Below, in pieces: positions 46,916 through 51,448 of a DNA stretch of 64,000 bases. Both the position numbers and the translations under genes were made by a program. The stretch comes from Acidobacteriota bacterium (GTDB lineage: Bacteria > Acidobacteriota > Thermoanaerobaculia > Multivoradales > J023). The stretch covers positions 1 to 64,000 of the forward strand of contig JAJCXO010000285.1 in assembly GCA_029263395.1 (NCBI GenBank), in the 5' to 3' direction. Numbering within the stretch: the first letter of the stretch is position 1; each line of letters opens with the position of its first letter. The notes beneath the pieces are model-generated. The model made no database searches. It had not been told where the DNA came from and saw only the letters and a program-made list of their open reading frames with translations.

Positions 46916-47674
46916 TCAGGCATGCTCCGTTGCAGGCACCGCCTCGCCCATCGGCGTCGTATCTCCCAACTTGCGGCGATAATGCCGCTGCCAAAGGAAC
47001 GTCGCTGGGACGCCGACCGCGGCTGGCAAGATCCACGGTAACACACCAGCCAAACCCGTCACCTGAAGATCGAAGAGCCGACTCGCTCCGAAGACCGCAA
47101 AGGCAGTGTGAAAACCGATTCCGGCACCAAGAGTAGAACGTAGATGGGCATAAAACCAGGCTCGGCGGGAAGTATCTTTGCCGGTGATATAGCGCAGGAT
47201 TCCCACCCCACTTCCCAGGCCAATCGGAGACATCACGATCAACAAGACCGAGTTACTGGTCGGCTGAATCACAGCTAAGGCTACGATCAGCAGACTTGCT
47301 GCGATAGCTGCCCCCGCCAAACCACGATTGAACCACGTATCAAGCTGCATCGGGTCAGGCTTGGCCTCGAGCACCTTGATGGAGTGACGCAGGATGACGA
47401 AGGTCACGAGCCCCAGGTAAGCCAACATCGCGATCGATGCCAAGCCAGCAAGATTCTGAGCTGTGAGGCCGCGCCCGACGATGAGCCAGACCAGCACTGC
47501 ACACGACGCCATCGCCGAAGCCGTGACGCCGTAGCCGCAAACCACGAAGACCTTACCGGCACGACGATGAACATAACCGCCCTTCCGGCTGAAAACTGGG
47601 AACCAGAAAGCGATGAGACCGGTGAATCCGAGGATGACATGCGCCCAACGAAGGATCTCGCGCAACAAATCCAT
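46916..47674 (-). CDS. Polytopic membrane protein, DUF2306-like
   Basis: 252 residues with about 7 membrane helices. The N-terminal RWAHVILGFTGLIAFWFPVFSRKGGYVHRRAGKVFV, with paired histidines and a GG-x-x-HRRAG turn, resembles DUF2306-type membrane proteins. AAGGAG lies 8 bases before the ATG. Its stop is 2 bases from the kinase start, so the three genes form an operon. It could act as an accessory sensor for the kinase, but that is inferred from position only. Confidence 0.78.
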   Translation of the reverse strand: MDLLREILRWAHVILGFTGLIAFWFPVFSRKGGYVHRRAGKVFVVCGYGVTASAMASCAVLVWLIVGRGLTAQNLAGLASIAMLAYLGLVTFVILRHSIKVLEAKPDPMQLDTWFNRGLAGAAIAASLLIVALAVIQPTSNSVLLIVMSPIGLGSGVGILRYITGKDTSRRAWFYAHLRSTLGAGIGFHTAFAVFGASRLFDLQVTGLAGVLPWILPAAVGVPATFLWQRHYRRKLGDTTPMGEAVPATEHA

Positions 47675-47930
47675 GACATCTGCTCCTTAGTCCATAAACA
47701 CAGAGGATCGTCCCGCTGTGCAAACAGCACTTTGCCGCGCCAAGGGTCACGATCTCAGGTGCCGATCGTCACCCATAAGGTCATGTCATGCCGCTCACAT
47801 GCCATTAGGCAACACATCATCCGATTCGTATAAGATGGTCGTATCAGAAGACTCAGAGGTCCCTAGGCGAGTCACCCAGAGTCGCTGGCCTCGAGAACCC
47901 CGAACCGGTCGACCTGAAATAAGGCTCAGC

Positions 47931-48602
47931 GTGAAGAACATTCTGCGTTGGCTTCTTTGGTTATGGCTCTGCGGGGTCGTGTGGGCGGCCTTCTTCTACG
48001 CGCCCATCTCGGCAGGCTTTGCCGGTCTCGACGGTCAAAGTCCGCAATCGAGCCGCATCGTGTTCTTCCACGTACCGATGGCGGTGGCTTCATTCTTCGG
48101 CTTCTTGGCCGGTGCTTGGTGGAGTGCACTCTATCTTTGGAAGCGTAAGCCAGAATCCGATCTTGCCGGCGTGGCGGCAATCGAGGTGAGTTTGCTGTTT
48201 TGCGTCTTAGCCACCGTCACGGGTGCAGTCTGGTCTCGCGTCCAATGGGGTGCCTACTGGAATTGGGATCCGCGGCAGACATCAATGGCACTCGCGCTGG
48301 TGTTCTACGCTGCATACCTGACGTTACGCGGCGCTATCGAAGACCCCGAGACGCGGGCCAGGATCTCGGCGTCCTATGCCGTGTTGGGTTTTATCGTGGC
48401 CCCGTTTCTCTACTTCATCATGCCCCGTATGGCCAGTTTTTCGTTACATCCCAAGCCCGGTGGCGCGGAGATGGAGGCCAGCATCGGCCTGGTGGTCGTC
48501 GCCGGAATCGTCGGCTTTACCGCCTTGTTCTTCTGGATGCAGAACCTGAGATATCGGGTGCTGGCGATCGAAGAACGCTCCGCGCAGATGATGATGGACT
48601 AA
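47931..48602 (+). CDS. ccmC: CcmC, heme-handling membrane protein of cytochrome c maturation
   Basis: 223 residues with six membrane helices. The WWD signature WGAYWNWDPRQTSMA lies at about residues 105-120, flanked by the conserved histidines (FFHVPMA and FSLHPKPGG). CcmC delivers heme to CcmE in the periplasmic face of the inner membrane. The GTG at 47931 has AAGG 6 bases upstream; an upstream frame opening at 47718 would add 71 Arg-rich residues that do not resemble CcmC. It is the first of four ccm genes here. ccmA and ccmB are not in the window. Confidence 0.92.
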   Translation: MKNILRWLLWLWLCGVVWAAFFYAPISAGFAGLDGQSPQSSRIVFFHVPMAVASFFGFLAGAWWSALYLWKRKPESDLAGVAAIEVSLLFCVLATVTGAVWSRVQWGAYWNWDPRQTSMALALVFYAAYLTLRGAIEDPETRARISASYAVLGFIVAPFLYFIMPRMASFSLHPKPGGAEMEASIGLVVVAGIVGFTALFFWMQNLRYRVLAIEERSAQMMMD

Positions 48603-48648
48603 CTGCCCTAACGGGTGATGCAGCAACAGCCCAAAGGGGTATCGAATC

Positions 48649-48765
48649 ATGAATGAAGGTGGCGTACTCTGGCTCGCAGCAGTCAACTTGATCATCTGGA
48701 CCGGTTTATTCTTCTATCTGCTTAGTCTGGAACGAAAGATCCGTCAGCAGGAGAAAGACTCATGA
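48649..48765 (+). CDS. ccmD: CcmD, tiny heme-exporter subunit
   Basis: 38 residues: one membrane helix (VLWLAAVNLIIWTGLFFYLL) followed by a charged cytoplasmic tail (SLERKIRQQEKDS), the standard CcmD form. It stabilises the CcmC-CcmE complex. AAAGGGG lies about 9 bases before the ATG. Its stop overlaps the CcmE start in ATGA. It is easy to miss because of its size. Confidence 0.85.
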   Translation: MNEGGVLWLAAVNLIIWTGLFFYLLSLERKIRQQEKDS

Positions 48766-49172
48766 AATCCAACAAGAAAGTCTACTACCTCGTCGGTACA
48801 GTGTTGCTTGTGCTTTTTGCCGGCTTCTCCTACTCCGAGTTCAGAGGAGCACTCACACCCTACGTGTCGTATGACAAGGCACGCGAAGCACCGCGTACCG
48901 TGCAGGTTGCTGGTGGCTTGGAGAAAGGGTCGAATTCCTACGACGAAGAGGCAGGCTTGATGCGCTTCACCCTGGTGGAAGCCGAGACTGAGCAGACACT
49001 TGCCATCCGCTATGAGGGTGTGAAGCCAGCCAACTTCGAAGACGCCATCAGTATTGTCGCGATTGGTGAATTCGACGCTCAGGCCGAAGAATTTGCTGCC
49101 AAACAGCTGTTGGTGAAGTGTCCGTCCAAGTACCAGGGATTGGAGAGCGTCGAGACCAAGACGTACGGCTGA
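48762..49172 (+). CDS. ccmE: CcmE heme chaperone, CxxxY variant
   Basis: 136 residues. One N-terminal membrane anchor (VYYLVGTVLLVLFAGFSY) is followed by the OB-fold periplasmic domain (TLAIRYEGVKPANFEDAISIVAIGEF). In classical CcmE the covalent heme ligand is a histidine in HxxxY; here the segment is KCPSKY, so C120 takes its place and Y124 is kept. This CxxxY form is known from the so-called System I* of some deltaproteobacteria and archaea, where CcmG and CcmH are also missing; none of these follows here either. It is overlapped by ccmD upstream and followed by ccmF after 2 bases. Confidence 0.9.
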   Translation: MKSNKKVYYLVGTVLLVLFAGFSYSEFRGALTPYVSYDKAREAPRTVQVAGGLEKGSNSYDEEAGLMRFTLVEAETEQTLAIRYEGVKPANFEDAISIVAIGEFDAQAEEFAAKQLLVKCPSKYQGLESVETKTYG

Positions 49173-49174
49173 TC

Positions 49175-51448
49175 ATGTTCGAGGCACTATCTCACCTCTA
49201 CTTGCCTGGCGCAGTCACCATCTGGTGTGCCGTCTTTTTCGGTTTAGCGTCGTTCTGGGGCTACGTTCAAGCTGGCCAAGCTGGCCAAGCTAGCCAAGGC
49301 TCGCTAGCCTTCGCCCGCCGGGGTTATTACTTCTTCGCCGGCTCTATCGTGCTTTCTGCCTTCGTCCTATTCCTATGTTTTATGCGACGCGATTTCCGGA
49401 TCGAGTACGTGTACCAGTATTCGGGGCTCGATCTGGCGGCACATTTTCAACTCGCAGCATTCTGGGCTGGCCAGAAGGGTAGCTTCCTGATCTGGCTGTT
49501 GTGGGCCGCATTGCTCGGCCTGCCGCTGGGTCGCTCTGCCGGTCGCGACGAACCGACGGTGATGGCAGTTTATCTCCTGACTCTGTTCGGCTTACTCTTC
49601 ATCCTAGTACGCGAAAATCCATTCGTGATGCTCGAAGAGGCGCCTTTTGATGGCGCTGGGCTAAATCCGCTGCTGCAGGATGATTGGATGGTGATCCATC
49701 CACCGATCATGTTTGTCGGTTATGCCGCCGCGGCGATACCGTTCGCTTTTGCCGCCGCTGGCATGTGGAGACGCAACACGTCGAATTGGGCGGCACGCGC
49801 CTTTCCGTGGGCGTTGGGTGGCTTCTTGGTCCTTGGTACCGCAATCCTCATGGGTGGCTATTGGGCCTACAAAACCCTCGGCTGGGGCGGCTACTGGGGT
49901 TGGGATCCCGTAGAGAACGCATCACTCATCCCGTGGCTATTGGGCATCGTCTTGATTCACGGTCTCTACCTGGAGCGTACAAAAGGCCGGTTTCGGCGTT
50001 CCAACCTGGTGGTCGCCTGCTTGCTTTACCTTTCGGTGCTTTACGGCACATTCCTCACTCGCTCCGGGGTCTTGGCGGACTTCTCCGTCCACAGCTTCGT
50101 TGATCTTGGCATCTCCGGATGGTTGGTTGCTCTGATGGCTTTCTTCGCCTTCACGTCGATGTACCTACTGTTGACCCGCCTACCCGGTGTTCAAACATCG
50201 ACGAACGAAGACCCATTCCTCTCCCGTGGTTTCGCGTTGGTGGCCTCGGCAGTTACGGTTGGTATTTCGGCTTTTGTGATCGCCATCGGCACCTCGGCAC
50301 CGCTGCTGACAAAATTTATGGAGAATCCTGGCCAGGTTGGCCCCGAGTTCTATAACCGTGTCAATCTACCCTTGGCGCTGATTATTGCCGTGTTGTTGAC
50401 AGCGGTCCCCTTCCTCACTTGGAAGGGCGTACCAGCCGCGCAATTGCTCCGAAAACTCTTGCCCAGCTTCGGTTTCGCCCTGGTGGCCACCATCGTTGCG
50501 GTGGCCAGTGGTGTCGAATCCCTGTTCCACATCGTCTTCGTCTTCTGCGCCTCTTCGGCGCTCGCTGCAAACCTGCACAAGGTCATCGATCTGATTCGCA
50601 GCCGAACCTTGGTGACCAGCGGTGGTTATCTCTCTCACGTTGGTGTCGGAATCATGTTCCTCGGCGTCCTAGCATCCTCGGCCTATGATCAAAGCGCCAA
50701 GGTAACCCTCGAGCAGGGTGTCGAGCAGCGGGTCGGAGAGGATCTGACGTTGACCTTCGTACGCTATCTGCCGCGGCAAGGCAAAGAGAAGGAACGGATG
50801 GAAGTCAAAGTTGTCCGTGACGACGGCTTCACTTACAACGCCTATCCCAAGTTTTTCCTCAACGATCGCACCAAGCAGCTGATGGTCAATCCTCACATCA
50901 AGAAGGTACCGCTGCAGGACTTCTACATCTCGCCGATTCAATACGAGCCGGGTCAACCGCCAGGAGTCGACCATCGCATGCAACTCGCCCGTGGCGAAAC
51001 CGCGACGATCGAAGACCTGACAGTGCGCTTCATCGACTACAACTTGCAGAACACCGGCAACCCCTCCGTGGCCCTGGCTAGCGGAGACGTGGTAACTCTC
51101 GGCGCGGATCTCGAGATCAGCCGCAATGGACAAGTCCTGCCGGCGACAGCGATTTATCGCTTTTCTTCGTTCGGCCAAGTCGAAACACCGCCGATCGAGC
51201 TACCGGGCGGAGGTTGGTTGGCGATGACCGGAATTCATCCCGGTGTCGGCAAAGTGCAACTCGACATCGCGGGCATTGAGTCTGAGCCACAGCTTGCCAA
51301 GCTGTCGATCGATGTAACCCGCAAACCCCTGATCAACATGGTTTGGTACGGACTCTATGTCGTACTCTTCGGCGGTCTCTTGTCGACCTGGAAGCGCATC
51401 AAGGGAGCGCGCCAAGTGGATGTGATTGCAGCCAAGACCGCTGCCTGA
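49175..51448 (+). CDS. ccmF: CcmF, heme lyase core of cytochrome c maturation
   Basis: 757 residues with about 14-15 membrane helices. HPPIMFVGYAAAAIPFAFA lies near residue 174-192, and the WWD heme-handling signature GYWAYKTLGWGGYWGWDPVENAS near 228-250, followed by LIPWLLG. The C-terminal third is a large soluble periplasmic part. CcmF joins heme from CcmE to apocytochrome CxxCH motifs. The ATG at 49175 lies 2 bases after the ccmE stop. A frame opening at 49118 would overlap ccmE by 55 bases and is rejected. In System I* the usual CcmH partner is absent. Confidence 0.93.
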   Translation: MFEALSHLYLPGAVTIWCAVFFGLASFWGYVQAGQAGQASQGSLAFARRGYYFFAGSIVLSAFVLFLCFMRRDFRIEYVYQYSGLDLAAHFQLAAFWAGQKGSFLIWLLWAALLGLPLGRSAGRDEPTVMAVYLLTLFGLLFILVRENPFVMLEEAPFDGAGLNPLLQDDWMVIHPPIMFVGYAAAAIPFAFAAAGMWRRNTSNWAARAFPWALGGFLVLGTAILMGGYWAYKTLGWGGYWGWDPVENASLIPWLLGIVLIHGLYLERTKGRFRRSNLVVACLLYLSVLYGTFLTRSGVLADFSVHSFVDLGISGWLVALMAFFAFTSMYLLLTRLPGVQTSTNEDPFLSRGFALVASAVTVGISAFVIAIGTSAPLLTKFMENPGQVGPEFYNRVNLPLALIIAVLLTAVPFLTWKGVPAAQLLRKLLPSFGFALVATIVAVASGVESLFHIVFVFCASSALAANLHKVIDLIRSRTLVTSGGYLSHVGVGIMFLGVLASSAYDQSAKVTLEQGVEQRVGEDLTLTFVRYLPRQGKEKERMEVKVVRDDGFTYNAYPKFFLNDRTKQLMVNPHIKKVPLQDFYISPIQYEPGQPPGVDHRMQLARGETATIEDLTVRFIDYNLQNTGNPSVALASGDVVTLGADLEISRNGQVLPATAIYRFSSFGQVETPPIELPGGGWLAMTGIHPGVGKVQLDIAGIESEPQLAKLSIDVTRKPLINMVWYGLYVVLFGGLLSTWKRIKGARQVDVIAAKTAA
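49271..49297 (+). repeat. 9-base tandem repeat inside ccmF
   Basis: Three copies of GC(T)GGCCAA-type units (GCTGGCCAA twice, GCTAGCCAA once) encode Ala-Gly-Gln/Ala-Ser-Gln in the loop after the first membrane helix. In-frame, so copy-number change would only alter loop length. Confidence 0.6.

Follow-up and report, generated by a model that had tools for sequence, protein, structure and literature searches.

Known CxxxY-type systems

The closest described relatives of the locus presented here belong to System I*, the CxxxY variant of cytochrome c maturation, which was described from 2006 to 2011 (Allen 2006 and Goddard 2010, via the reviews PMC3601427 and PMC3884852). The Ccm proteins of Desulfovibrio desulfuricans are reported to function in E. 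coli without CcmG and CcmH, with a Cys-type CcmE that binds heme covalently (PMC3601427), and for D. vulgaris CcmE the report is of ferric heme bound non-covalently through the same Cys (PMC3884852). In Methanosarcina acetivorans, CcmABCEF is given as a streamlined system in which C120 of the CXXXY motif is required and CcmE is heme-stained (PMC9084895). The 2011 review puts CcmH in about one-third of bacteria with a Cys-type CcmE, and states that bioinformatics had as of that year turned up nothing in System I* that would compensate (PMC3601427).

The ccmCDEF locus

The window is a 64,000-nucleotide stretch from an Acidobacteriota bacterium whose relatives carry the name Thermoanaerobaculia. 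It holds 4 ccm genes in open frames on the + strand, and very probably they belong to a functional System I* that works as proposed below. The features are as follows.

47931-48602, + strand: ccmC, GTG start, 223 residues, open frame, PF01578 at 83.8 bits; heme-handling WWD membrane protein
48649-48765, + strand: ccmD, 38 residues with a single transmembrane segment, open frame; TIGR04391 (CcmD_alt_fam) at 33.1 bits against a cut-off of 24
48762-49172, + strand: ccmE, 136 residues, open frame, PF03100 at 62.7 bits (cut-off 24.6); CxxxY-type heme chaperone
49119-49133, + strand: codons of Cys120-Pro-Ser-Lys-Tyr124, putative heme-binding motif
49175-51448, + strand: ccmF, 757 residues, open frame, PF01578 at 108.3 bits and CcmF_C PF16327 at 87.8 bits, each above its cut-off; cytochrome c synthase
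50690-51328, + strand: enlarged beta domain of CcmF, residues 506-718 of the predicted model, placed on the periplasmic side by analogy

The smaller genes were examined for how well they fit their families. CcmC has TIGR01191 as its best NCBIfam model, yet under the cut-off (97 versus 186 bits); in alignment, its His47 and His173 sit opposite His60 and His184 of the E. coli protein, and 3 of the 4 Trp residues compared are retained. CcmD passes the TIGR04391 cut-off and falls below that of Pfam (PF20077, 19.6 versus 23.5 bits). By a rough rule, a small transmembrane frame lies between ccmC and ccmE in 67 of the 79 loci having both. The ccmE start overlaps the ccmD stop by 4 bases (ATGA). Downstream of ccmF the window has neither ccmG nor ccmH, and the next genes, encoding a metallophosphoesterase, a shikimate kinase and an SNF-family transporter, are on the - strand.

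CcmE Cys120 (codon TGT, 49119-49121) and Tyr124 (TAC, 49131-49133) align with E. coli His130 and Tyr134 at the same spacing. An HMM alignment of CcmE, whose 244 rows include repeats of one genome, has Cys and Tyr in 225 rows and His and Tyr in the remaining 19. The CcmE model has a mean pLDDT of 90.2, and its top 5 solved matches are all CcmE, including 2kct from D. vulgaris. The Cys is present in a 91% identical CcmE (L037) and in all 80 loci of one scan of relatives, a count biased by VKCPSKYQ being one of the 6 search peptides; an HMM search that used no motif led to 20 class members, and all 20 have it. A frameshift or a sequencing error as the source of Cys120 is rejected, the codon lying in an intact frame and the Cys being common to the relatives. 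An earlier note, made from the letters of this DNA, had described a ccmCDEF set with an intact ccmD, a KCPSKY Cys in place of the covalent-heme His with the Tyr kept, and no ccmG or ccmH following ccmF, and each of these stands.

The remaining machinery in the genome

The assembly is 10.7 Mb in 291 contigs at 96.29% completeness, so a gene could be missing from it. It has one CcmE only, of the Cys type, and a second CcmE, the HxxxY form included, was searched for in this genome, not found, and rejected. The ccmAB genes are on a separate contig (C112), apart from ccmCDEF, and complete the ccmABCDEF core; their products are 61-70% identical to those of the ccmAB that precede ccmCDEF in 4 relatives (L038, L039, L042 and L046). 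Both score under the NCBI equivalog cut-offs (CcmA 114.6 versus 131.6 bits, CcmB 33.3 versus 156.2), and CcmB is over that of Pfam. For CcmH the genome gives no PF03918 match at E = 0.001 with all 22 candidates scored. For CcmG there is nothing over the TIGR00385 cut-off among 13 matches, the best at 57.0 versus 123.15 bits; this is a strict cut-off, which 2 of the 14 control genomes reach, and with 13 thioredoxin-like matches below it an unlinked CcmG-like protein is possible. A full-genome search as the earlier note proposed does find ccmA and ccmB, and neither a canonical second ccmE nor CcmH, and leaves the 13 lower-scoring CcmG matches standing. The assignment to the CxxxY system of Desulfovibrio and some archaea is supported by the single Cys-type CcmE and by a CcmH search that found none.

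The genome has 2 DsbD_TM proteins over the cut-off, and 15 matches to one cytochrome c family, 10 of them over the cut-off, so substrates are likely present. System II as a fallback is rejected with no PF05140 match (ResB/CcsB) in the genome. A third PF01578 protein (C278, L005) is rejected as a Ccm part; it directly precedes a gene that we take from sequence and order to be hemA-like, the protein itself being presumably of the HemX type.

In CcmF, His175, His306, His262 and His488 match E. coli His173, His303, His261 and His491, whose roles we take to be those of the P-His and TM-His ligands, and the P-His, TM-His and WWD residues are conserved. The model has a pLDDT of 90.1 with a best match to 6zmq at Z = 36.5 over 570 residues; 6zmq and CcsBA were taken as the meaningful entries of its VIA-align list.

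The proposed mechanism takes all of its chemistry from D. desulfuricans and M. acetivorans. CcmC and CcmD would load heme onto CcmE, where a vinyl group would probably be thioether-linked to Cys120 with Tyr124 as an axial ligand. The CcmAB ATPase would release holo-CcmE, and CcmF alone would accept the heme in its WWD/P-His site, then attach it to CXXCH apocytochromes. Dedicated CcmG and CcmH would play no part; a DsbD/CcdA protein, together with a general thioredoxin-like partner, would probably maintain the apocytochrome thiols in the reduced state.

Distribution in Acidobacteriota

The gene set is an already known System I* and is ordinary for its phylum. CcmE was typed in 151 Acidobacteriota genomes, a fetched subset (about 30 best-scoring plus one per genus) of the 242 genomes having CcmE among 396, and is CxxxY in 134 and HxxxY in 17. 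CcmH, scored on the best 9 candidates in many genomes, is in all 17 HxxxY genomes and in 93 of the 134 CxxxY genomes, with none in the other 41. Because so many CxxxY genomes keep CcmH, the Cys of CcmE and the loss of CcmH, 2 traits often told together, are separate. The missing ccmG and ccmH that the earlier note took as a mark of System I* are thus correctly described beside ccmF, but CcmH absence is not diagnostic. Nor is the Acidobacteriota setting, which that note saw as widening the known range, an exceptional one; with CxxxY as the usual form among the genomes typed, the counts suggest that System I* is usual in this phylum and not a peculiarity confined to sulfate reducers and archaea.

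Within the class of the window the split is complete, with 21 CxxxY genomes without CcmH and 12 HxxxY genomes with it among the 33 typed, our genome included. Two whole systems replacing each other within one class make a natural experiment on the purpose of CcmH.

The enlarged CcmF domain

The long C-terminal part of CcmF is a feature that the earlier note does not mention. In the model, residues 506-718 are mostly beta strands, between a helix at 479-503 and the last helix at 721-756. The CcmF comparison dropped 14 loci on contigs that duplicate others by length, L098 and L108 with no full intact copy, and loci without a full CcmF, keeping 65 of the 80 loci L037-L116; L116, with no ccmABC found beside its ccmE, was placed in the group of the window by tree position, bringing that group from 71 rows in the tree to 72 in the comparisons of tail and Trp. 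One CxxxY locus, L239, missed the CcmH pattern in the Trp comparison solely because its domain was reported in 2 pieces, with the motif in the other piece. It might be that this branch is a distinct form of System I* in which the beta domain, in place of CcmH, presents the apocytochrome or reduces it, and no Trp relay serves in heme reduction. We regard this as a tentative possibility.

The tail from TM-His2 to the C-terminus is 269 residues in our CcmF versus 156 in E. coli, with a median of 282.5 (range 176-376, n = 72) in the branch versus 155, 161 and 161 in the 3 other unfused groups. L179 and L191, having no aligned His488, were left out of these lengths; their post-WWD stretches are long (500 and 570 residues), and a CcmH match is absent in the genome of L179 and present in that of L191. 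In 11 CxxxY loci CcmH is fused to the end of the CcmF tail, so a CcmH module can be accommodated there. Where E. coli has W216, a proposed electron-relay Trp, our CcmF has Phe217, and the position is Trp in 3 of 72 branch rows versus 56 of 58 elsewhere. In a quick, midpoint-rooted tree with long branches flagged, the branch falls on one side of the root and the remaining 58 rows on the other, with support of 100 each.

Against this, 8 CxxxY CcmF rows whose genomes gave no CcmH match have short tails (145-170), so CcmH loss is possible without the long domain, and 4 loci having CcmH have tails of 215; 6 more rows with tails of 145-170 are from genomes with CcmH elsewhere. The simple account of the long domain as compensation for lost CcmH is weakened by the 8 and the 4. 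One branch member, L114, has a tail of 176. Of the 9 HxxxY rows, all with CcmH, 2 lack the Trp as well, and the rows compared contain no Desulfovibrio CcmF. The branch may also be one evolutionary event, leaving the link between the long domain and CcmH loss unreplicated. The fuller proposal, of a separate System I* branch in Thermoanaerobaculia-type Acidobacteriota, Zixibacteria and a few others with a self-sufficient CcmF synthase, a beta domain replacing CcmH and no Trp relay, we consider rather doubtful. The long domain and the lost Trp are testable sites for heme attachment by CcmF without CcmH.

A tblastn search of CcmF against plasmids gave 194 records, and coverage of the query stayed below 80% in each; among the 40 matches listed none aligned beyond residue 593 and none was from Desulfovibrio. 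In 12 loci of a sub-branch, a same-strand protein of 341 residues with no Pfam match is encoded downstream of ccmF (for example L091:6173-7195); the window does not have it.

Alternative readings of CcmE and CcmH

Holding of the heme by Cys120 non-covalently, as an axial thiolate rather than a thioether, is unlikely. The D. vulgaris report (PMC3884852) favors it, and the structure of that protein, 2kct, is among the matches to our model; the covalent binding reported in D. desulfuricans (PMC3601427) and the heme-stained M. acetivorans CcmE (PMC9084895) argue for the thioether.

That a CcmH exists, in the 4% that the assembly lacks or diverged beyond PF03918, is very improbable. The 291 contigs at 96.29% leave room for it, and among the 50 genomes behind window-like loci 4 give a CcmH match above the cut-off. 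On the other side, with the best 9 candidates scored in many genomes, there is no match in 21 of 21 typed CxxxY genomes of the class, including our own and 3 of 3 of the same family, nor in 43 of the 50 genomes behind named relatives, with 3 more having sub-threshold matches only. The 14 largest clusters of neighboring frames, drawn from the window together with as many as 86 relatives, include none that looks like a CcmH substitute; they are mostly opposite-strand genes of the window neighborhood and what, by eye, seem to be shadow frames of such genes.

Comparison with known systems

As a System I* locus, the window resembles D. desulfuricans and D. vulgaris, where the sources describe a CxxxY CcmE, no CcmH and no linked CcmG (PMC3601427, PMC3884852), and its CPSKY motif is one described as common in System I*. 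D. desulfuricans is also given a ccmD (PMC9084895). The window differs from Desulfovibrio in its phylum and in having ccmAB apart from ccmCDEF, and the enlarged periplasmic domain is listed as a feature of the window relative to Desulfovibrio, whose CcmF stood outside the comparison. The M. acetivorans system is likewise described with a CXXXY CcmE and no CcmH, but it lacks ccmD and has CcmF split in two, whereas the window has ccmD and a one-protein CcmF (PMC9084895).

With System I of E. coli our genome shares homologs of ccmA, B, C, D, E and F and the heme-site histidines, and it differs in the change of CcmE His130 to Cys, with no match to CcmH (LRCxxC) and no linked CcmG. The other Acidobacteriota CxxxY sets share the CxxxY CcmE with the window, but they run in the order E-F-H-A-B-C, encode a Cys-rich CcmH (motif CxCG(x)C), which is fused to CcmF in 11 of 34 loci, and have a CcmF domain that is mostly short.

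The ccm genes of the window and of its genome

The window encodes four + strand ccm genes, ccmD among them as the earlier note had it, and profile searches for the families agree.

47931-48602, + strand, ccmC
48649-48765, + strand, ccmD
48762-49172, + strand, ccmE
49175-51448, + strand, ccmF

CcmE Cys120 and Tyr124 align with E. coli His130 and Tyr134, which bears out the claim that a Cys replaces the heme-binding His with the Tyr kept. The predicted CcmE structure (mean pLDDT 90.2) combines an N-terminal helix with a beta domain, and its top five matches among solved structures are all CcmE, including Desulfovibrio vulgaris 2kct, which has a Cys at the same site. Before ccmC, on the - strand (46916-47674), a 252-aa protein with no Pfam match is predicted by eye to be of membrane type; its neighbors are a histidine kinase and a LuxR-type response regulator.

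The genome containing the window, G000 (10.68 Mb, 291 contigs, 96.29% complete), has one CcmE; a second, named in the earlier note as evidence against its reading, was searched for and only the single copy was found. The genome search also proposed there locates both ccmA and ccmB on another contig, C112, where they overlap each other at the contig edge (locus L002) with 61-70% identity to the ccmAB preceding ccmCDEF in the relatives' loci L038, L039, L042, and L046. Hence ccmAB and ccmCDEF are apart in G000 and adjacent in L038, from a relative of the same family. Positions 47674-47931, upstream of ccmC, are without ccmAB, and because none is seen before ccmC in the available upstream bases of L037, the closest relative (CcmE 91%), this separation probably characterizes the whole genus. 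Searching G000 gives no match to CcmH, whose gene the note found missing after ccmF, and no ResB. The CcmG profile has 13 matches, none reaching its cut-off (best 57.0 of 123.15 bits), a strict one that only 2 of 14 control genomes pass. Two DsbD_TM proteins are above cut-off, and one cytochrome c family has 15 matches, 10 of them above cut-off.

CcmE type, CcmH, and locus arrangement among relatives

Scanning named genomes with the window CcmE gives 80 loci, mostly from Acidobacteriota (many named Thermoanaerobaculia or Holophagae) plus Zixibacteria; KCPSKY is present in 80 of 80, a biased count given that the motif is among the six search peptides. The motif-free survey finds CcmE (PF03100) in 242 and CcmH (PF03918) in 191 of 396 Acidobacteriota genomes. 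Motifs were typed in 151 of the 242: 17 are HxxxY, all 17 with CcmH, and 134 are CxxxY, 93 with CcmH and 41 without. The window's class, with 33 typed genomes (its own included), divides without exception into 21 CxxxY lacking CcmH and 12 HxxxY having it. For the genomes behind named loci (50 of 80), CcmH has no match in 43, sub-cut-off matches only in 3, and matches above cut-off in 4.

Three locus arrangements are found. The first is HxxxY, ordered A-B-C-E-F-G-H where complete, and its CcmH has only the Cys pair of RCPxCQ (two Cys in the first 90 match residues, 9/9 loci, E. coli included). The second is CxxxY, ordered E-F-H-A-B-C, with a Cys-rich CcmH that has more Cys besides its CxCG(x)C motif, typically giving 5 within the first 90 match residues (L176, L181, L183, L186, L187, L197, L198, L205, L208-L210, L212-L215, L217-L219, L223-L225, L227, L234-L244, and L246). 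CxCG(x)C is seen in 33 of 34 such loci, and the 34th shows it in its other domain piece. In 11 of these loci (L186, L210, L219, L224, and L234-L240) CcmF runs on at its end into CcmH within a single open frame of 826-975 codons, and these fusions form one group in the CcmF tree with support 100. Some E-F-first loci have no CcmH at the locus; in L182, L191, L192, and L200 a small TM protein follows ccmF, which by eye we take to be CcmI-like. The third arrangement, that of the window, is CxxxY, ordered (A-B-)C-E-F, with CcmH absent at the locus. Between the first two arrangements, CcmE and CcmH seem to change type together.

In family f5, the genus of L169 (genome G318) is HxxxY with CcmH and that of L153 (G326) is CxxxY without it; different systems in two genera of one family point to the entire system having been replaced or transferred. 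In 12 relatives from the window's group (L091:6173-7195 and 11 more loci of a sub-branch), ccmF is followed on its own strand by a 341-aa protein that matches no Pfam family and is absent from the window.

The CcmF protein and its long C-terminal stretch

Four histidines of the window CcmF (His175, His262, His306, and His488) fall in the alignment at the E. coli heme-site histidines His173, His261, His303, and His491. The first three are kept in 130 of 130 compared rows, and position 488 has no aligned residue in 2. The CcmF model (mean pLDDT 90.1, pTM 0.85) matches the CcmF crystal structure 6zmq with Foldseek E = 4.0e-20, and by structural alignment with Z = 36.5 and rmsd 3.0 over 570 residues. 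In a quick, midpoint-rooted tree that carries a long-branch warning, the window's branch (72 rows) and the remaining 58 rows fall on opposite sides of the root, support 100 each, with HxxxY rows as one group within the latter. The CcmF of L053 (labelled Myxococcales) is nearly identical to that of L052 (Thermoanaerobaculia), and L053 is probably a misbinned contig.

PMC10663686 gives the P-His/TM-His scheme of CcmF and proposes E. coli W216 as one of two Trp relaying electrons from the TM heme. The window has Phe217 (49823-49825) there; Trp is absent from 69 of the 72 branch members (present in 3) versus present in 56 of the 58 others, where both non-Trp rows are HxxxY.

From TM-His2 to the C-terminus, the window's branch has a median of 282.5 residues (range 176-376, n = 72), with 269 in the window CcmF, where residues 506-718 are modelled as a mostly beta domain. 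The corresponding medians are 161 for HxxxY rows (n = 9), 161 for CxxxY rows with a separate CcmH (n = 22, range 151-215), 155 for CxxxY rows of E-F order whose locus lacks CcmH (n = 14), and 323 for the fused group because CcmH is counted in. The boldest reading is that the long domain may stand in for CcmH, but those 14 rows have short tails at CcmH-less loci, 8 from genomes with no CcmH match in the PF03918 survey and 6 from genomes with CcmH elsewhere, so CcmH-free systems in general do not need it.

Relation to known systems

By analogy with D. desulfuricans (PMC3601427) and M. acetivorans (PMC9084895), CcmCD would most likely load heme onto CcmE Cys120, CcmAB would release the heme-loaded CcmE, and CcmF alone would attach the heme. 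A D. vulgaris report cited in PMC3884852 puts in dispute whether the heme bond is covalent in all CcmE of the Cys type.

The window gene set is System I*, and for that set the earlier assignment holds. The review PMC3601427 describes this system, in which 25 of 36 genomes show CPSKY, the majority motif, and about one third have CcmH, so CcmH absence is not defining. It names delta-proteobacteria, Chloroflexi, and Firmicutes as hosts, with zero occurrences of the word Acidobacteria. Among titles, abstract openings, and passages covered, no paper on CcmE type in Acidobacteriota was found. The host range is therefore somewhat wider than that review states, and to this extent the suggestion that an Acidobacteriota host widens the setting stands, but with 134 of 151 typed genomes being CxxxY, System I* looks like the norm for the phylum.
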